Made by a program: the position numbers and the translations under genes
The notes under the pieces: generated by a model
Told to the model about the DNA's origin: nothing
What the model saw: only the letters and a program-made list of their open reading frames with translations
Databases searched by the model: none
DNA from: a virus
Virus record (IMG/VR): IMGVR_UViG_3300034073_001167
Span: 1-36,544 of that record
Reading direction: 5' to 3' (one strand)
Length of the DNA: 36,544 bases
Shown: piece by piece, positions 5,987 through 29,343 of the stretch
Position numbering within the stretch: position 1 is the first letter of the stretch
Layout: each line of letters starts with the position of its first letter

Positions 5987-8900
5987 TTATAAAGTGGCGT
6001 TTATTTTTAGCTTATTTCCCTCGGCAAGATCGCGCGCAATATCCTCGCTCACAACGTATGCTTGAAGCCTGTCAATCCTGTTGTTTATCGCGTCCGTCTT
6101 TGCCTCCATGACTTGCAAAAATTCATTCATGTCACCCTGTAAACCCAAGCCTTGTATTGGTGGGCTTATCGGTGGAACCATGCCACCCTCAGCGAATCCT
6201 TTGATACCAAGTTTCCTGAATGTGGGAGAACCGCCTAATAAACTTTGTTGCCGTTGATTCAATACAACCTCACCACGTTTAACGTACGCAAGAACATTGT
6301 CACCGTTTGACCGCGTTGGTATGTTTTGCTTTTGATTTACCCGTTGCCCTGTGACCACGCCACCCTCAGCAAGGGGTTGAGCGATAATCGTCGCCGTTTG
6401 TATGCCTGCGAAAACACCTGCGGAAATGGCTGAACCAATGGTAAACGGCGGGCCAGGCGGAACGGCTAAAGCCCTGTTTACCGCCAGAGCGCCTTGAATG
6501 ATTGATTGAAGAATGGCAATTTTCTTTTCAGCCTTTGCCGCCTTTAACTGCAATGCTTCGGCTTCTTTGTTTCTTGATTCCAATAACGCCTTTTCTTGAA
6601 CAATCTCTTTTTCTAATCTCCTTTTTTTTATACCGCTTGCCTTTTCCGCTTTGGCTTCAAGTGTTGAAATATTTTCTTCTGTCAATTCAATCTGCTCATT
6701 TAATTGGTCAGCATCCTTTTTAAAACGCGCTTGTTGAACCGTTGAAAAAAAGTCGGTTACTAAAGAAGCGGTTTGCAAATAAGTTTCAATTCTTTTGGCG
6801 CGCTCCTCTAAATCCTCCTCTTCCTTTTTTCTTTGTTCGTCCCTAAAGTCGTCCGCGTTTTTTGTAACCTCTTTAAATACCTTTTGAATATCTTCAACCT
6901 CCTTTTTTAATAACTCAGGCGGCTTTGTCGTCAAAGGAAGCGTCGCAAGTTGCTCAGCGTTTTTCAAGTTGTTAAGCAAGTTCCCACGCGTGGCATCCGC
7001 TAAGATTTGGTTCTGTTGTTCAACCGCCGATTTGATTTGGTTATTAATTGCGTTTAACTTTACCGCAAGTTCTTTCTGTGTTCCCGAACCAACCACGGCG
7101 TTAGAAAACGCGCTTTGTAATTTGCTTCGTTCATCTTCGAGGGCTGCAATCGAACCTTCGGTGAATGCTTTTACCGTTTCCCTTGCCGCTGCTTTGCCTA
7201 ATTTGCCGCCTAAATTTCGTGCAGGAACTTCGGGTTTAAATTTATTTAACTCCGATTCAATGCCTTTAATTTCTTCGCTTAACTTTTTATAATCCGCTGA
7301 GGCAAATAAAACAACCTTCCTTTGCTTTCTCTTTTCGGCTAACTTTTGTTCTAATCCTGCCTGAGTACCCAACAACGCGGCTGCTTGCTCTTTTGCAATT
7401 CTTTCTTGTTCTTTAAGCGCCTCTTGATTAATTAAATTTATCTCTTTGTTTCCGTCTTTGATTTGTTGATTAAAAACTTTGAAAAAAGAAAGGATTGACC
7501 CCTCAGGCTTCGTAAACTCGGCAAAGGCTTTTTTATATGCGTTTAATCGGTTTGGAACTTGTTCAAAGTAATTTAGGATTCCAGATAAAACACTATTTAA
7601 AAATAACTTTCCCTTTGCCGTGGCAATTTCAAACTCTACCCCCGTGGTTGCAAGTGTTTGGTTATACGCAACCTCACTTATTTTTAATTGCTCATTAACC
7701 CTAAATAATTCTTCTTGCTGCTTTTGATAAAGGTTGGTTGACAAAGTTACGTCGTCCGTGCTTTGCAAAACGTCTCCCAATGTTATTAAGAAGTCTTTAC
7801 CAATGTCTTCGCCTGGTGCGCCAAAAACGTCTGCAATAATCGTTTGAAGCTGAGAACCTGCGACACCCGTTTCCGTTATCTTATCGGTAACAAGCCCAAA
7901 AGCCTGACCCGATGTTACTGAGCCGTTGTTTATATTTGTAAATAATTCGTCTGTAAATTCTTTGCCAAAAGCATTTTCCAAAGCCGCTCTTGATGCTTTT
8001 GTTTGTTCGTTTATCCTTAATCCAAATTCTTTTACCGCGTCAAGTCCCTTATCTGAAAATATACCTTCATTTGCTGAAGCGATGGAAACCCTTAAAAAAT
8101 CTTCGGCACTTAATCCAGCGTCACGAAATTGAACGGAGTATTCCTTTAATCCGTCAAGGAATTGACCTTGAGCGTCTGCACCTTTTCGAAAACCAACCTC
8201 AACCACGTCCAACGCCTGAGAGAAAGAAATACCCAAAGCCTTACTTGCGCTATTTGCCGCAACAACAATCTCATCAACGTTTTTTCCATACGTCACCGCA
8301 ATAGCTTGACTACTTGCCACAACTTGTGTCAATTCTTCGCCCGTGATTTGTGTAAAGTTGGTCACCTGGGCTGATAACTCCTGCGTTGCCCTTGCGGCTT
8401 CAATTAAGCCTCCAACGATTTCGCTAATGGCTTGAAACGCGGTCAATGCTATTCCTATTGTACCAAGTCCAACGCTTAATGACCCAGAGGCCTTATTTAA
8501 ACTTGCAAATCCGTTTTGTACTCCACCAATAGCGCCTGTAACTTGTCCAAGTGTTCCGCTTAACTTTGGGAAAAAGTTTGATAAGGCTTCGGTATAACCA
8601 CCGACATTCCTTTGAAATTGTCCAACCGTGGCATCAATGCCTTTTAATTCTTTATCAAGTTTATTTATACTTACAAGAAGGTCTTTTGCCTCTTGCGTAT
8701 TTGTCATTTGAGCCGCAGCCAAATCCTTGTATCGGTTGCGCTGGTCATTCAACTCCTTGCTTAACTTGCGATATGCCCCGTTGGCTTTGTCGGTTGCGGT
8801 TATTTCTTCGTTTCGGCTTTTGATTTGTTCCTTAACAACTTTGTTAACCTCCATTTGCGCCGCCTTCAAGTCAACCAACTTCGCCTCAAGTTTCTTGATT

Positions 8901-19993: not shown

Positions 19994-20021
19994 CAAAGAT
20001 AATATTTTATTTGTTATCAAA
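19994..20021 (-). promoter_or_regulatory. leftward promoter for the ssb/late operon
   Basis: On the minus strand TATCTTTG (19994-20001) matches the Bacteroidota -7 consensus TAnnTTTG, and TTTG (20018-20021) lies 16 nt upstream as a -33-like element. The usual spacing is a few bases longer. It is 18 nt from the ssb start, leaving a very short leader. Confidence 0.6.
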
Positions 20022-20049
20022 TTTAAAATATTTTTTAAGAATATATTTG

Positions 20050-20057
20050 TAACTTTG
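20050..20057 (+). promoter_or_regulatory. rightward promoter box for the tRNA-like RNA
   Basis: TAACTTTG matches TAnnTTTG exactly and sits a few bases before the first tRNA-like element, so transcription would begin close to its 5' end. No clear -33 TTTG is seen at the usual distance. Together with the leftward box it makes the region a divergent promoter. Confidence 0.5.
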
Positions 20058-20058
20058 T

Positions 20059-20135
20059 GGCGCAAGGTAGCGGATGGGTAGCGCAAAGCGGCGACCGCGG
20101 CTGACATTGTGGGTTCGAATCCCACCCTTGTTGCC
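20059..20135 (+). ncRNA. tRNA-like element 1, class I shape, no normal anticodon loop
   Basis: A canonical T arm is present: GTGGG / TTCGAAT / CCCAC at 20109-20125. The acceptor helix is CAAGG (20063-20067) with CCTTG (20126-20130), and GGC/GCC can pair outside it across a one-versus-two base bulge. The D arm is GCG (20070-20072) with CGC (20082-20084) and a loop holding GG. The anticodon arm is abnormal: 20087-20102 forms either a mismatched 5-bp stem with a 6-nt loop or a GCGG/CCGC stem with a CGA triloop, so there is no seven-base loop and no U33. I therefore do not call it a decoding tRNA; it may be a degenerate tRNA or a tRNA mimic. Confidence 0.55.
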
Positions 20136-20276
20136 CTACAAATGGCAGACATTAAACTAGAGTGAAATAAATGGTGGTAATATTTCTAAAGTCTGTATTG
20201 TACCACTACTTACCACCCGAAGGTTGAGCAATGCTGGCACCGTGCGTTGATAAAGGGCTGGAACGGTGTAAATTTT
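20136..20276 (+). ncRNA. structured spacer between the tRNA-like elements
   Basis: No ORF is supported here. Several helices can form: CAGAC (20146-20150) with GTCTG (20191-20195), GGTGGTAA (20173-20180) with TTACCACC (20210-20217), and CACCGT (20238-20243) with ACGGTG (20263-20268). Pairing at this density suggests one RNA spanning both tRNA-like elements. Not a recognised Rfam family to me. Confidence 0.35.
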
Positions 20277-20424
20277 AGCAAGGTGGCGGAATGGTAGACG
20301 CACTTATAGGTTAATGTTGGTTCGAGACTCACATATCCTAACCATAGGATATAGCATATGAGGTTTAATGCAACTATAAGATTTGAGTGTACAATCAAAT
20401 GCAGTTTCGAATGCTGCCCTTGCT
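20277..20424 (+). ncRNA. tRNA-like element 2: class II cloverleaf with a second cloverleaf in place of its anticodon loop
   Basis: Outer cloverleaf: acceptor AGCAAGG (20277-20283) with CCTTGCT (20418-20424), 7 of 7 pairs; Leu-type D arm GCG/CGC (20286-20301); anticodon stem CTTATAG (20303-20309) with CTATAAG (20374-20380); long variable arm ATTTGA/TCAAAT (20381-20400); T arm GCAGT/TTCGAAT/GCTGC (20401-20417). The anticodon loop is replaced by 64 nt (20310-20373) that fold into another cloverleaf seen from inside: a T-arm-like hairpin with TTCGAGA, an acceptor hairpin TATCCTA-ACCA-TAGGATA, and a D arm GCAT/ATGC with GG in the loop. The inner unit has the order of a circularly permuted tRNA with encoded CCA. 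No anticodon triplet can be assigned to either unit. Confidence 0.6.
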
Positions 20425-20429
20425 TTTTT
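20418..20429 (+). terminator. possible intrinsic terminator using the acceptor stem
   Basis: The 3' strand of the outer acceptor helix, CCTTGCT, runs straight into six further T (20424-20429). A stable tRNA-like fold followed by a T run could end the RNA that starts near 20058. It is a distant-pairing structure, not a simple hairpin, so efficiency is uncertain. Confidence 0.35.
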
Positions 20430-20432
20430 AAC

Positions 20433-20466
20433 CTCTCTTAAATCTCTAATTAAATCTCTCTTAAAT
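20433..20466 (+). repeat. three tandem 11-12 bp repeats upstream of the methyltransferase gene
   Basis: CTCTCTTAAAT at 20433-20443, CTCTAATTAAAT at 20444-20455 and CTCTCTTAAAT at 20456-20466 lie head to tail, ending 26 nt before the ATG at 20493. They could be operator or iteron-like protein sites. No protein can be assigned. Confidence 0.5.
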
Positions 20467-20492
20467 TATACCATTTCGTTGGCGTCAACAAA

Positions 20493-21086
20493 ATGATAAA
20501 AACAAAACAAATGATTGATAACAAATTCTTTTTTGACAAATCCGTTGAACTTGGTTTTACAACCACGGACTATGAACCCCTTGTGAACTTGCATACCAAC
20601 GGCGCAAGGGTTTTGCAAATCATGGGTTGTGAATCCGTCTTTGAATTTGGCTCAGGACTTGGCTTCTTTTTATCAGCGTGTCAGCGCGTGGGCTTGTATA
20701 AACACGTTGGATATGACATTAACCCGTATGAACGTGAATTTGCAATAAGTAAGGGCATTGACCCGAATAGATATTTAATCGGTAAATTTAAAACGCATGG
20801 CAGTTACGATGCCATTTACTCCACCGAGGTATTTGAACACATGGCCGACGAAGAAATAGAAGAGGTCATGCCAATCCTTTACAAAGCTTGTAACAAGTAT
20901 TTTTATTTCACGTCAACGCCTCATGCCTCAGCTGATCCTGCCTTTGACATTGAATGGGGACATATTAACCTGAAGCAAAAAGACGAATGGGTTGCCATGT
21001 TTCATCGCCACGGTTTTGACTTACTGAGGGAAGCGACGGAGGTGACGCCGTGGGGACTTTTGTTTGTTAAGAGGGAGAAAAAGTAA
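20493..21086 (+). CDS. class I SAM-dependent methyltransferase
   Basis: A 197-residue Rossmann-fold enzyme. Motif I is VFEFGSGLGFFLSA near residue 49-62, motif II GYDINPYERE near 72, and the post-motif region YSTEVFEHMADEEIEEVM near 108. It resembles the Methyltransf_23 group, which methylates small molecules, sugars or proteins; DNA-methyltransferase motifs such as DPPY are absent. It is the first rightward gene, downstream of the tRNA-like region and the tandem repeats. With the glycosyltransferase on the other side of the control region it could act in a modification pathway, but that is speculation. A second ATG at codon 7 is possible. Confidence 0.78.
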   Translation: MIKTKQMIDNKFFFDKSVELGFTTTDYEPLVNLHTNGARVLQIMGCESVFEFGSGLGFFLSACQRVGLYKHVGYDINPYEREFAISKGIDPNRYLIGKFKTHGSYDAIYSTEVFEHMADEEIEEVMPILYKACNKYFYFTSTPHASADPAFDIEWGHINLKQKDEWVAMFHRHGFDLLREATEVTPWGLLFVKREKK

Positions 21087-21115
21087 TTTTTTTTAAAAAA
21101 GTAATTAATATTTTG

Positions 21116-21123
21116 TATATTTG
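21116..21123 (+). promoter_or_regulatory. promoter box before leader RNA 1
   Basis: TATATTTG matches the TAnnTTTG -7 box. It lies 7 nt before the first stem of leader RNA 1, the right distance for a transcript that begins at the leader. An AT-rich tract precedes it; no convincing -33 TTTG at about 20 nt. Confidence 0.5.
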
Positions 21124-21129
21124 CTTAAA

Positions 21130-21223
21130 CTTTTTGCAGGACGCACTACCCAGCAAAAGGTATTTGAGGAAACCATTTACCTCATTAAACCCATAAAGAG
21201 TAGTGCCTTTGTGGGTTTTTTTA
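21130..21223 (+). ncRNA. leader RNA 1: kissing-loop/terminator element
   Basis: Three stems. P1 is CTTTTTGC (21130-21137) with GCAAAAGG (21153-21160). P2 is TGAGG (21165-21169) with CCTCA (21180-21184). P3 is AAACCCA (21187-21193) with TGGGTTT (21212-21218), followed by T residues, i.e. an intrinsic terminator. The P1 loop contains GCACTAC (21143-21149), the exact complement of GTAGTGC (21200-21206) in the P3 loop, so a loop-loop contact is predicted. The next ATG is 21234. Leader RNA 2 has the same plan with different bases. It could be an attenuator or a free small RNA. Confidence 0.65.
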
Positions 21224-21233
21224 TTTTTTTATT

Positions 21234-22103
21234 ATGCAAATATTAAACATTGATGAATCGCACGAACTCGAAAGATGCGAGGTAGTCATTAAACAGGGCT
21301 TACAAACCTTCATTGAGGTTGGACAGGCATTAATGACTATTAGGGAAAAACGATTGTATCGAATTGGTTTCAAAACGTTTGAGGATTATTGTATTGAAAG
21401 GTGGTTAATAACCAAAACACAGGCTAATAGATTAATTCAAGCCTCTGAAACAATTAGTAATTTGACACCCATGGGTGTCGTTTTACCTAAAATAGAAAGA
21501 CAAGTAAGACCCCTAACAAGTCTTGAGCCAGAAATTCAAAAAGAGGTTTGGACAGAAGTTGTCAAAACACATGGTGACAATATTACGGCTGCAAAGGTTC
21601 AAAGTGTTGCGAATGATTGGAAACCTGTCAATCAAGAAATTAAAGAAATTAAAAGTGAGCCGATGTTTGCAATTAGCACACCAGAGGAATTATTAAAGAA
21701 AGCTAAGGAAGTAGCCAGGGAAAGAGCCGAAGTAAAAAGACAAATTATTGACCAAAAAGGAAGTACCGAGGTTATTCCAATGGAAGATTTGGATTTGATT
21801 AATCGAATGAAACAAGGCGAAACGGTTGTTCTAAACATGAATACAAATTTCCATGCGATGAAATGGGCAAAGGATAATAATAGGTATCAGCAAATAGACC
21901 GTTGGAGTGACTGGGGAAATCCTTTTATGTTAAATTCTGACGGGGATCGGGATACGGTATGCGAATCCTTTAAAATTTACTTTGATTTGAAATTAGGATT
22001 AAAGGCAAAAGTAAAGGAATTAAAAGGCAAAGCATTAGGCTGTCATTGTTACCCGCTTCGTTGCCATGGTGAACATTTAAAACAATTGGCAGATGGAGAG
22101 TAA
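21234..22103 (+). CDS. two-domain protein: ParB/DUF3102-like N-terminus and DUF4326 C-terminus
   Basis: A 289-residue protein. Residues 1-120 have the pattern of phage and plasmid DNA-binding proteins: FIEVGQALMTIREKRLYR near 27-44, then FEDYCIERWLITKTQANRLI with a helix-turn-helix look, then ERQVRPLTSLEPEIQKEVW. Residues about 195-289 match DUF4326: VVLNMNTNFHAMKW, WSDWGNPFMLNSDGDRDTV, and the closing LKGKALGCHCYPLRCHGEHL with paired Cys/His. The cysteines suggest metal binding. It follows leader RNA 1 closely and overlaps the next gene by 11 nt. DUF4326 has no function I can state with confidence. Confidence 0.65.
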   Translation: MQILNIDESHELERCEVVIKQGLQTFIEVGQALMTIREKRLYRIGFKTFEDYCIERWLITKTQANRLIQASETISNLTPMGVVLPKIERQVRPLTSLEPEIQKEVWTEVVKTHGDNITAAKVQSVANDWKPVNQEIKEIKSEPMFAISTPEELLKKAKEVARERAEVKRQIIDQKGSTEVIPMEDLDLINRMKQGETVVLNMNTNFHAMKWAKDNNRYQQIDRWSDWGNPFMLNSDGDRDTVCESFKIYFDLKLGLKAKVKELKGKALGCHCYPLRCHGEHLKQLADGE

Positions 22104-22803
22104 TATAGATTTTCTATGTTTAGGTCAAACAGTACCAGAGGAAAGTAAAAAATACGGGCTTCGTGTTTGCACGGCTGGATGGGATGTTCAAAATGAATGC
22201 TTAGTTAGGATATATCCATTAGGCGTAAATAAAGACCACCATTTTAAAAGATGGCATATTTATAAAAATCTTCCCGTTAGAAATAATCCAAAGGATAGCA
22301 GGAAAGAAAGCTGGAGGCTAAATATTGATATTACTGAATTAAACACCGTTGAATGTAAAAAATACGACGGCAATAGAATCAATGCTTTAAAAATGATGTT
22401 TGATTTGTATGGTTCAAAAGATATTATAACGCTAAATCAAACACGGAAAAGTTTGGCAATTATTAACATGATTAAGCCTCATGGTTACTTTGAAAACAAA
22501 AGTAAAATTATCCAAAATGTAAATCAATTATCTATATTTGAAGACTTGAATACCAATAATATGGTTGGTAAAAATGGCTTTGATTATTTACCGAGAATAG
22601 AATTTAAGGACGAATTAAATAAGCCTCACAAATTAATGTTTAATTCATGGGACGCTTATATGCACCAAATTAATTTAGCACCTAAGTATGGAAAGGATAA
22701 TTTATGGAACCAATTAAAATTAAACCCAAAAGAAAATAAGTTAGCATTAATTGGAAACATGAATCATCAAAGGAACGCTTGGTTAATAATTTCAACTTTT
22801 TAA
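22093..22803 (+). CDS. conserved hypothetical protein, possible dual-OB-like fold
   Basis: A 236-residue protein overlapping the DUF4326 gene. The opening DFLCLGQTVPEESKKYGLRV then CTAGWDVQNECLVRIYPLGV, and NPKDSRKESWRLNIDI near residue 65, recall small bacterial proteins with paired OB-like domains found beside mobile elements; this is memory of a pattern, not a secure match. The gene is more AT-rich than the structural genes. Coupling to the DUF4326 protein suggests a joint function. An alternative is a novel family. Confidence 0.5.
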   Translation: MESNIDFLCLGQTVPEESKKYGLRVCTAGWDVQNECLVRIYPLGVNKDHHFKRWHIYKNLPVRNNPKDSRKESWRLNIDITELNTVECKKYDGNRINALKMMFDLYGSKDIITLNQTRKSLAIINMIKPHGYFENKSKIIQNVNQLSIFEDLNTNNMVGKNGFDYLPRIEFKDELNKPHKLMFNSWDAYMHQINLAPKYGKDNLWNQLKLNPKENKLALIGNMNHQRNAWLIISTF

Positions 22804-22814
22804 AATAAATTCCT

Positions 22815-22822
22815 TATCTTTG
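22815..22822 (+). promoter_or_regulatory. promoter box before leader RNA 2
   Basis: TATCTTTG matches TAnnTTTG and lies 4 nt before the first stem of leader RNA 2. It is only 12 nt after the stop of the preceding gene, so the leader has its own promoter inside the early operon. Confidence 0.55.
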
Positions 22823-22826
22823 GTTA

Positions 22827-22923
22827 TTCTTTTGAACGAGGTGCAAGTCATTCAAAAGAACTTCGGGACAATATCCGCATTGTTTCAACTAACCCAGTAG
22901 CCTTGCACCTGCTGGGTTTTTTT
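22827..22923 (+). ncRNA. leader RNA 2: kissing-loop/terminator element
   Basis: P1 is TTCTTTTGAA (22827-22836) with TTCAAAAGAA (22851-22860), 10 bp. P2 can be ACAAT (22868-22872) with ATTGT (22879-22883). P3 is AACCCAG (22891-22897) with CTGGGTT (22912-22918), followed by a T run, an intrinsic terminator. AGGTGCAAG (22839-22847) in the P1 loop is perfectly complementary to CTTGCACCT (22902-22910) in the P3 loop. The ATG of the replication gene is at 22934. Architecture matches leader RNA 1 while loop sequences differ and compensate. Confidence 0.68.
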
Positions 22924-22933
22924 ATACATCTTT

Positions 22934-23950
22934 ATGAATAAGTTAAATAACAAAATCAAGGATAATTTTACCATTATCCCCAATGACATTATCCGAAACA
23001 AAAGCCTGAGCGATCGCGCTCGTTTTATCTTCTGTTACATGGCTTCCATGCCAGATGATTGGAAATTTTATCAAGGCGCAATGGCAAAGGAACTTGGATA
23101 CACAAAGGATACATTGAGAAAATACATTGAAGAACTTTTGACAACAGGTTACCTTCATCGGGAACAAAGGAGGGAAACGGGTAAATTTGATAGTTATGAT
23201 TATACCCTGAATTTTACACCGAGTGGTAAAAATACCGACACGGTAAAAATCCGCAACGGAGAAAAACCGACACGGGAAAAGTCGGCACTAACAAATAAAG
23301 ACTTGGAACAAAGAAAGATTATAACAAATATAGACTTTGAACAAAGTATTGAAAATCCTTCAGATTTTACCGACTTCACAAAAGTTGAAACAAATGATTT
23401 TCCAAACTTTCCATCTGTAGAAATAAAATCTGTATCAGTAAAAACAAATGTTCAAAGCCCCAAAGTAAACCCTTTTACCGTTGTTGCTAAGTTGCAAAGT
23501 GAAAAAGAAAGAAAAAAAGTTGCGGAGCAAAAAGAAAGAAAAGCCGACGCTGAGTCGAAAGCCGAGCGCCAACCCTCCCCCACGTACGCCGCCTTTTCCG
23601 TGTTTTGCCAAACGTTTGAAAACTTATCCGGTGCTGCGTATCCGACTGATCAAAACGGCAATTATATCATGATGCCCAAAGACGCGGGGCAAATGACAAA
23701 TCTCCTGAGATACATTGACAAAATTGACAGGCAGGGCGATAGCATTGAGGCATTGAAGGTGTTTATTCAAGCCGCGTGGAATTTGAATGACAAATGGCTG
23801 AGGGCAAATTTCACCATAGCAAACATTTATGGACAAGCCTCAAAGATATTTACCGCATACCAAACGACAAGCCCAGCGGCAAAGGACAAGGCGTATAATG
23901 ATAAGCTTCAGGAATTGCTTGCAGAACGCATGGCAAAGTTTCAAGATTAA
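22934..23950 (+). CDS. replication initiator-like protein with N-terminal winged HTH
   Basis: A 338-residue protein. The N-terminus (FTIIPNDIIRNKSLSDRARF then IFCYMASMPDDWKFYQGAM and AKELGYTKDTLRKYIEELL) is the winged helix seen in phage replication organisers of the RepO type. The middle (about 100-215) is low-complexity and K/E-rich. The C-terminal part is helical (DAGQMTNLLRYIDKIDRQG, RANFTIANIYGQASKIF). Its likely role is binding the phage origin and recruiting host helicase; no helicase or loader is recognised nearby. It is placed directly behind leader RNA 2, so its dosage may be RNA-controlled. Confidence 0.7.
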   Translation: MNKLNNKIKDNFTIIPNDIIRNKSLSDRARFIFCYMASMPDDWKFYQGAMAKELGYTKDTLRKYIEELLTTGYLHREQRRETGKFDSYDYTLNFTPSGKNTDTVKIRNGEKPTREKSALTNKDLEQRKIITNIDFEQSIENPSDFTDFTKVETNDFPNFPSVEIKSVSVKTNVQSPKVNPFTVVAKLQSEKERKKVAEQKERKADAESKAERQPSPTYAAFSVFCQTFENLSGAAYPTDQNGNYIMMPKDAGQMTNLLRYIDKIDRQGDSIEALKVFIQAAWNLNDKWLRANFTIANIYGQASKIFTAYQTTSPAAKDKAYNDKLQELLAERMAKFQD

Positions 23951-23964
23951 AAAAAATAACAATT

Positions 23965-24186
23965 ATGACAAACGAAGATTATTTAGTTACCCATCTTGGC
24001 GAAGGTAAATTTCAAGTAAAGATGAAAAATAATGAAATTAAGGAGGCTGGTTCTTTATTGCGAGGCATTATTAGATATACGTATTTTGAAGATTATAGTT
24101 TACCTAAAATTGGGTGGAAGGTAACAAGAAGCCAATTAATGAAAGATTATTTACCAAAGATGCAGCAAGATTTTTTAAACCGTTAA
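23965..24186 (+). CDS. small hypothetical protein
   Basis: A 73-residue protein (MTNEDYLVTHLGEGKFQVKM) starting 14 nt after the replication gene. A beta start and helical end (QLMKDYLPKMQQDFLNR). It is probably co-transcribed with the initiator-like gene. No family recognised. Confidence 0.5.
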   Translation: MTNEDYLVTHLGEGKFQVKMKNNEIKEAGSLLRGIIRYTYFEDYSLPKIGWKVTRSQLMKDYLPKMQQDFLNR

Positions 24187-24998: not shown

Positions 24999-25022
24999 GT
25001 TTCATAATTTGGTTTTGTTTTG

Positions 25023-25054
25023 GTGAGGCATAGAAATTATGTCTCACTTTTTTT
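25023..25054 (+). terminator. intrinsic terminator
   Basis: A 10-bp stem, GTGAGGCATA (25023-25032) with TATGTCTCAC (25038-25047), a 5-nt loop, and seven T (25048-25054). It ends the replication sub-operon; a repeated AT-rich element follows at once. Confidence 0.8.
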
Positions 25055-29310: not shown

Positions 29311-29343
29311 ATGTCCGCGTCAACCGATGCGGACATTTTTTTT
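29311..29343 (+). terminator. intrinsic terminator
   Basis: ATGTCCGC (29311-29318) pairs with GCGGACAT (29329-29336); 10-nt loop; at least eight T follow. It separates the nucleotide-metabolism sub-operon from the next. Confidence 0.85.

Follow-up and report, generated by a model that had tools for sequence, protein, structure and literature searches.

Leader RNAs with a covarying loop-loop contact ahead of early phage genes: a candidate promoter-attenuator cassette

What do two leader RNAs of the same design, each with its own pair of matching loops, do in front of two early genes of one phage? The question is raised by the window, by which we mean the whole stretch of 36,544 nt analysed here, a 36.5-kb virus record. 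Its genes include portal, ClpP-type protease, terminase, minor-tail and amidase genes as well as genes of the SSB, ParB_N, DUF4326, rep, exonuclease-like, DCD and dGTP-diphosphohydrolase types. A marginal tRNA-like gene lies between two gene blocks (20061-20135, plus strand; Rfam tRNA with 29.9 bits against a cut-off of 29; ARAGORN tRNA-???). Two leader RNAs of about 95 nt could be read from the sequence, leader 1 at 21116-21222 and leader 2 at 22815-22923 (Table 1). In the protein encoded after leader 1, the DUF4326 domain comprises residues 217-283 of 289 only, and no Pfam match was obtained for the first 200 residues.

Both leaders follow one plan: a TAnnTTTG box, the hairpins P1 and P2 and the terminator P3, with the loop of P1 (L1) complementary to the loop of P3 (L3). 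The initial annotation had proposed this plan, including the T run, and reading, folding and scanning confirmed it. The perfect complementarity of the loops can be read directly in each leader (GCACTAC with GTAGTGC, AGGTGCAAG with CTTGCACCT); in leader 2 the match extends into the top of P3. A terminator indeed stands ahead of each ATG, but the distance of about 20 nt had to be corrected, as the ATG follows 15 nt past the stem and 10-11 nt past the T run. With fold energy z-scores of -4.07 and -3.53, leaders 1 and 2 were equalled by 0 and 1 of 200 dinucleotide shuffles, respectively. A scan for the full pattern (box, P1, loop match of at least 7 nt, terminator and ATG) returned exactly these two sites in the window; 20 dinucleotide shuffles of the window gave no hit. 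Loop matches as such came up 20 times in total in these shuffles, never with a box, a third time in the window, likewise without a box, and four times in four other Bacteroidota phage sequences plus part of a fifth, again never with a box. The TAnnTTTG box, which we take to be the Bacteroidota -7-type promoter motif, is treated here as a motif and thus a putative promoter; by eye, no clear -33 element was seen upstream of the leader boxes. A sigma-70 consensus scan yielded 40 matches with 37.9 expected, which is chance level. Two more strong terminator-like sites are present on the early strand (25022-25048 and 29311-29336, plus) and are absent from the box-plus-match hits. An open frame of leader 2, running from TTG at 22832 to a TAG in P3, was inspected as a possible leader peptide and rejected, because one-base length differences in close relatives (TTTCAA versus TTCAA) break the frame.

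Table 1. Features of the two leaders and of the adjacent genes in the window
Feature	Position	Strand	Evidence
Leader 1, promoter box TATATTTG	21116-21123	+	Sequence, TAnnTTTG-type motif
Leader 1, hairpin P1	21129-21161; arms 21129-21137 / 21153-21161	+	Minimum-energy fold; family covariation
Leader 1, L1 kissing sequence GCACTAC	21143-21149	+	Sequence, loop-match script; family pair counts
Leader 1, hairpin P2	21165-21184	+	Fold; P2 of family alignment
Leader 1, P3, intrinsic-terminator stem-loop	21187-21218	+	Terminator scan; covariation
Leader 1, L3 kissing sequence GTAGTGC	21200-21206	+	Sequence, loop-match script, covariation
Leader 1, T run	21216-21222	+	Sequence
Downstream gene 1, DUF4326 protein, 289 aa	21234-22103	+	PF14216, E 1.8e-16
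Gene between leaders, 236 aa	22093-22803	+	phrog_25907, function unknown
Leader 2, promoter box TATCTTTG	22815-22822	+	Sequence
Leader 2, hairpin P1	22827-22860; arms 22827-22836 / 22851-22860	+	Fold; covariation
Leader 2, L1 kissing sequence AGGTGCAAG	22839-22847	+	Sequence, loop-match script, covariation
Leader 2, hairpin P2	22865-22886	+	Fold; covariation
Leader 2, P3, intrinsic-terminator stem-loop	22891-22918	+	Fold, terminator scan, covariation
Leader 2, L3 kissing sequence CTTGCACCT	22902-22910	+	Sequence, loop-match script, covariation
Leader 2, T run	22917-22923	+	Sequence
Downstream gene 2, replication-initiation-like (rep), 338 aa	22934-23950	+	HTH_36 PF13730, E 2.9e-6; phrog_428, E 9.6e-16

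The search with the rep protein gave 79 virus loci, and a first script, which required both the box and 7 nt or more of loop match, gave 63 different leaders in 107 instances. The covariance model R1 was built from an alignment of 61 leaders (A1) with nested pairs only and has no L1-L3 term. Of the 49 virus records searched with it, 46 had one or two strong matches (at least 75 bits) each. By protein, DNA-pattern and model searches the set was extended to at least 171 strong matches and at least 98 different full-length RNAs in related metagenomic phages, and in the model searches the set members score at least 69 bits and everything else at most 42.2 bits. Before counting, 40 of 211 rows of the alignments A3-A5 were dropped, namely 39 opposite-strand matches overlapping real leaders and one further match of 40 bits (L254 7525-7652), which proved to be the truncated leader lacking L1 described below and counts as an exception to the rule of matching loops. 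All 171 strong matches start with TAnnTTT, the box having been required by the first script and in the training set of the model. Two complete leaders on one locus always share the strand (39/39), and no locus has more than two. The T run comprises at least five nucleotides in 92 of the 98 leaders and is shorter in the other six, and L3 measures 8 nt in 80, 7 nt in 12 and 6 nt in 6 of them. Seven alignment positions from P1 to P3 do not vary among the 98 leaders, namely those of two U-A pairs in P1 and of one A-U pair in P2, and a single column just 3′ of P2.

A leader of the same plan with unrelated stems was observed at L080 2858-2971 (plus), with the loop match TGTGGAACC/GGTTCCACA, 36 nt ahead of a rep homologue. 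Since R1 misses this diverged leader, the architecture may be wider than the family; a search with the L080 rep protein gave six loci, all on contigs already in the set. A truncated leader on L254 (about 7600-7652, plus) comprises the 3′ part of P2, P3 with the L3 sequence GTCCTAC, the T run and a following ATG but neither P1 nor L1; the opposite strand of this contig carries a complete leader, and the two are divergent. It is either a decayed copy or an assembly junction and, as it keeps the terminator without L1, indicates that, in one of these two forms at least, a terminator may be present with its partner missing.

Covariation of the loop pairing, which had been noted between the two leaders of the window, extends to the whole family. 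The perfect L1-L3 match is 7 nt long in 72 of the 98 leaders, 8 nt in 17, 9 nt in six and 10 nt in two. The sole full-length leader below 7 nt is the one on L248 with 6 nt, so that 97 of 98 keep at least 7 nt, an unfiltered count in a set that includes the 61 training leaders preselected for such a match. A search for homologous leaders without complementarity had been set beforehand as a test and produced no full-length one; the truncated copy on L254 lacks L1. When the 98 leaders were aligned by R1, blind to the contact (A6; contact core in columns 28-34 and 95-101), 674 of 675 cells of the core L1-L3 pairs were standard-paired, none was G.U, and all seven core pairs had changes on both sides. 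In the same rows, one-sided (G.U) cells number 40 in P1, 91 in P2 and 66 in P3, 197 in total. The corresponding count in A1, whose leaders were selected for the match, was 99.3% paired with two G.U cells, and rows with shifted loops explain part of the mismatches. For the whole structure, four of five measures were reached by none of 500 shuffles and the fifth (pair types) by two, and versions of the structure slid along A6 pair 38.6-51.2% of the cells compared with 97.9% for the true one.

On a tree built from the other columns, the contact changed 48 times on both sides and 12 times on one side, whereas the respective numbers are 17 and 51 for P1, 7 and 38 for P2, and 55 and 56 for P3. Changes per column amount to 7.7 in the contact, 8.3 in P3, 7.8 in the rest of L1, 10.4 in the P2 loop, 4.7 in the P1 stem and 3.7 in the P2 stem; the rate of the contact is what a plain tertiary contact would give. 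An example is presented with the leaders of L074 and L014: their loops differ by one C-G to G-C swap (CTAGACA/TGTCTAG versus GTAGACA/TGTCTAC), and none of the 81 other P1-P3 columns differs (promoter columns not counted). The chimera L057:1059 combines a 5′ half of the leader 1 type with other P2 and P3 stems and has kept the L1-L3 match. Among the 61 leaders of A1, 18 loop sequences occur on one scaffold, and over the 98 leaders the own L1-L3 duplex has a mean of -12.3 kcal/mol as against -6.35 kcal/mol for cross duplexes. As judged from these alignments, the L1-L3 match is under strong selection, the loop pair having been rewritten many times and yet kept matching, and the leaders are almost certainly functional RNAs with a loop-loop contact.

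In all 119 distinct contexts the model end is followed after 4-25 nt by the ATG of an ORF, which either has 45 aa or more or extends beyond the contig end. By a similar, not identical rule, an ORF follows the stem after 5-33 nt at only 6 of 50 further strong terminator-like sites, taken from the window and four other phages. The downstream proteins of at least 40 aa (118 of 119) fall into 11 groups (blastp, 1e-5), two of which are joined under the looser rule of another survey, one that left out L001 and the contig-repeating loci L081 and L083-L085. With an ORF start in every context and many different genes behind it, the element is a 5′ leader that occurs before different genes. The commonest gene after the leader in the relatives (e.g. 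L059 573-1838, plus) encodes a protein of about 420 aa, the start of which looks ParB-type-like by eye; in other phages, other proteins replace it. Within 150 nt upstream of the rep start, a leader is present at 19 of 47 loci (18 of the family and the diverged one of L080) and absent at 28. On L037, L038 and L040 the upstream gene ends as in the window (the phrog_25907 gene) and rep follows directly, with no leader. We therefore read the leader as a discrete, mobile cassette of about 120 bp, present or absent at rep starts, which forms part of the promoter-attenuator reading that we consider probable as a whole.

Strong model matches were found in virus contigs only. The rep profile had a single match in the cellular-genome collection (L086 1693-2589). 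It belongs to a Chitinophagaceae MAG contig of 3.25 kb, which is either a hint to the host or a binned phage contig. Together with the promoter box, it suggests that the host probably belongs to the Bacteroidota. Draws of 294, 395 and 396 genomes from the family, phylum and order of this MAG, which overlap, contained no strong match; weak matches in 0, 2 and 7 genomes (32.6-42.2 bits) turned out on reading to be ordinary terminators without an L1-L3 match and were rejected as host or prophage copies. As only 9-12 candidates were scored per genome, absence from host genomes is not proven by these draws. Among named phages, blastn gave no match for positions 20000-24000 of the window or for the best-scoring leader, and a weak model match in Flavobacterium phage tant8-1 (24.7 bits) was rejected, having neither terminator nor loop match on reading. 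Phage_integrase, the one recombinase family searched, had no match in 24 of 24 records, which may be fragments, and matched in 14 of 14 control genomes; this suggests that the leader-bearing phages are virulent.

The best explanation for the leaders is probably a mobile promoter-attenuator cassette, the terminator of which would be clasped by the loop-loop contact. Transcription would start just after the TAnnTTTG box, P1 and P2 would fold, followed by the terminator P3, and L1 would pair with L3 over 7-10 bp, as the covariation indicates, and so clasp the terminator loop. Judged by the anatomy, RNA polymerase would then either stop at the T run and release an RNA of about 95 nt or read through into the early gene, and the contact would tune the split between both outcomes. 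It may favour termination and a compact released RNA, whereas occupancy of L1 by anything else would raise read-through. The general attenuator order of putative promoter, intrinsic terminator and gene is found in the sequences of all 119 contexts, and an attenuator is the plain reading of box, structured leader, terminator and gene. Attenuation of the DUF4326 and replication genes had been suggested in the initial annotation; the terminator between box and ATG fits this suggestion, while regulation itself, and especially its sign, is what we infer from it. Only about 15 nt separate the stem from the ATG, and the gene should hence depend on read-through by transcripts that start at the putative leader promoter or at a more distant site upstream. 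We consider it probable that the downstream gene is controlled by termination or read-through. In most leaders, 7 of the 8 L3 nucleotides take part in the contact, which ends where the P3 stem begins. Because the 7-pair core ends at this stem and L3 has 8 nt in 80 of 98 leaders, contact and terminator can coexist, and from this geometry we would expect, given such control, that the contact favours rather than opposes termination.

Other readings of the leaders in cis have to be weighed. Chance complementarity around two ordinary terminators is practically out of the question: shuffled windows do contain hairpin loops that match a terminator loop over 7 nt (20 in 20 shuffles), but none of these has a promoter box, a match of at least 7 nt is kept in nearly all full-length homologues, and all core pairs covary. 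The main rival retains the cassette and assumes kinetic antitermination, in which L1 would capture L3 as it leaves the polymerase, delay the closing of P3 and drive read-through. In the order of the transcript L1 is made first and L3 would emerge before the 3′ arm of P3; the own L1-L3 duplexes are strong, and the match reaches 8-10 nt in 25 of 98 leaders and enters the top of P3 in leader 2 of the window. However, the conserved core of seven pairs does not enter the P3 stem, and L3 keeps the size of a hairpin loop (6-8 nt), suiting coexistence rather than exclusion, so that we regard this rival as possible, though not probable. Rather unlikely is a leader bound by the polymerase or by a protein of phage or host, like HK022 put, or a 5′-UTR stabiliser, with a contact that only holds the fold. 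Sequence-specific recognition would need invariant columns such as the seven found between P1 and P3, and a pair of leaders ahead of early genes is reminiscent of putL and putR (PMC9378689), but put RNAs act on terminators further on, whereas here the terminator is part of the motif, and a stabiliser would not need the T run.

The leaders could also act in trans. Cross-regulation between the two leaders, which had been considered as well, is not supported, since the match of L1 to the L3 of the other leader comprises 3 nt in the window and no more than 5 nt in any of 21 distinct two-leader pairs. The higher stability of the own L1-L3 duplex makes homotypic action possible, in which the released RNA of about 95 nt would pair via L1 and L3 with nascent leaders of the same allele, in the manner of the P4 CI RNA. 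The outcome might be a shut-off of early genes as the copy number rises, or the exclusion of co-infecting phages with the same loop. This would agree with the 18 loop sequences on one scaffold, with loops that change while the background stays, and with the two leaders of one genome, which never share a loop in the 21 pairs; G.U-free pairing would sharpen specificity, and rep genes would be a natural target. On the other hand, the avoidance of shared loops is not significant (by 300 random draws, the chance of no cross match of at least 6 nt is 0.07, and of at least 7 nt 0.36), the contact columns show no elevated rate of change, lysogenic immunity would hardly be expected from the 24 records, which may be fragments and have no Phage_integrase match, and the contact in cis already explains the covariation. 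We therefore consider such trans control, together with its outcome, doubtful. An arms race with faster evolution of the loops was not supported overall by entropy or by the tree of the other columns; the two closest background pairs do differ mainly in the contact. A still wider reading as an RNA address system, in which interchangeable early-gene attenuators would carry the L1/L3 pair as a self-recognition code read by the released leader RNA, is speculative and improbable. If true, it would mean copy-number-dependent shut-off of early genes and RNA-based exclusion of co-infecting relatives with the same code, favouring new codes.

Returning to the promoter-attenuator cassette, its relation to known RNAs is to be considered. 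No Rfam 15 family reached its gathering score over the leaders, and the search of the whole window gave only the tRNA at 20061-20133. With a relaxed threshold in 21050-22960, leader overlaps were obtained with ncr1575 (26.1 bits, cut-off 60), rli38 (23.8, cut-off 49) and PyrR (22, cut-off 54), and on the minus strand with His_leader (20.9 bits, cut-off 49); these families were rejected for the leaders because of scores far below the cut-offs. No description of such a leader was recognised in the literature searched, in which subscription papers are few and bioRxiv is not covered, and which included PMC8040213. This points to a new family of attenuator-like leaders without an Rfam match. The repeated rewriting of the loop pair with its match kept suggests an early-gene switch of a kind that seems not to have been described, and the family points to a layer of control at the RNA level in phages that probably infect Bacteroidota.

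Among phage RNAs, putL and putR of HK022 are similar in that two related structured RNAs in early transcripts bear on termination (PMC9378689). As described there, put RNA has about 70 nt and two stem-loops and does not include the terminator; its effect, exerted by contact with RNA polymerase, reaches terminators over a distance of at least 10 kb, and the text does not contain the word pseudoknot. In contrast, the leaders of the window consist of three hairpins including the terminator, joined by a loop-loop helix, and thus depart from the two-stem-loop form of put. In the CI RNA of P4 with seqA and seqC, complementarity in leader-region RNA controls premature termination before replication genes, and CI is a processed antisense RNA in lysogens (PMC4825925). 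Here, however, the match joins two hairpin loops, one of them that of the terminator, and Phage_integrase had no match in the 24 records. The c4 RNA of P1 and P7 is grouped with P4 CI as an immunity RNA. A kissing hairpin likewise governs the terminator decision in antisense attenuators of the pT181 type, of which orthogonal variant sets exist, and which employ a separate antisense RNA (PMC3753616). The leaders described here differ in that both partners lie in one sense transcript. Loop-loop contacts also occur in aptamers such as that of the purine riboswitch, where they close the fold of a leader on which an expression decision depends; loops of the purine riboswitch type have a conserved sequence and lie apart from the terminator. 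The loops of our leaders, in contrast, are nearly free in sequence except for their complementarity. Here the terminator loop itself is one half of the long-range contact, which is supported by dozens of compensatory changes, and since many natural loop variants exist on one scaffold, the effect of a terminator-loop contact on termination becomes directly testable by loop swaps.
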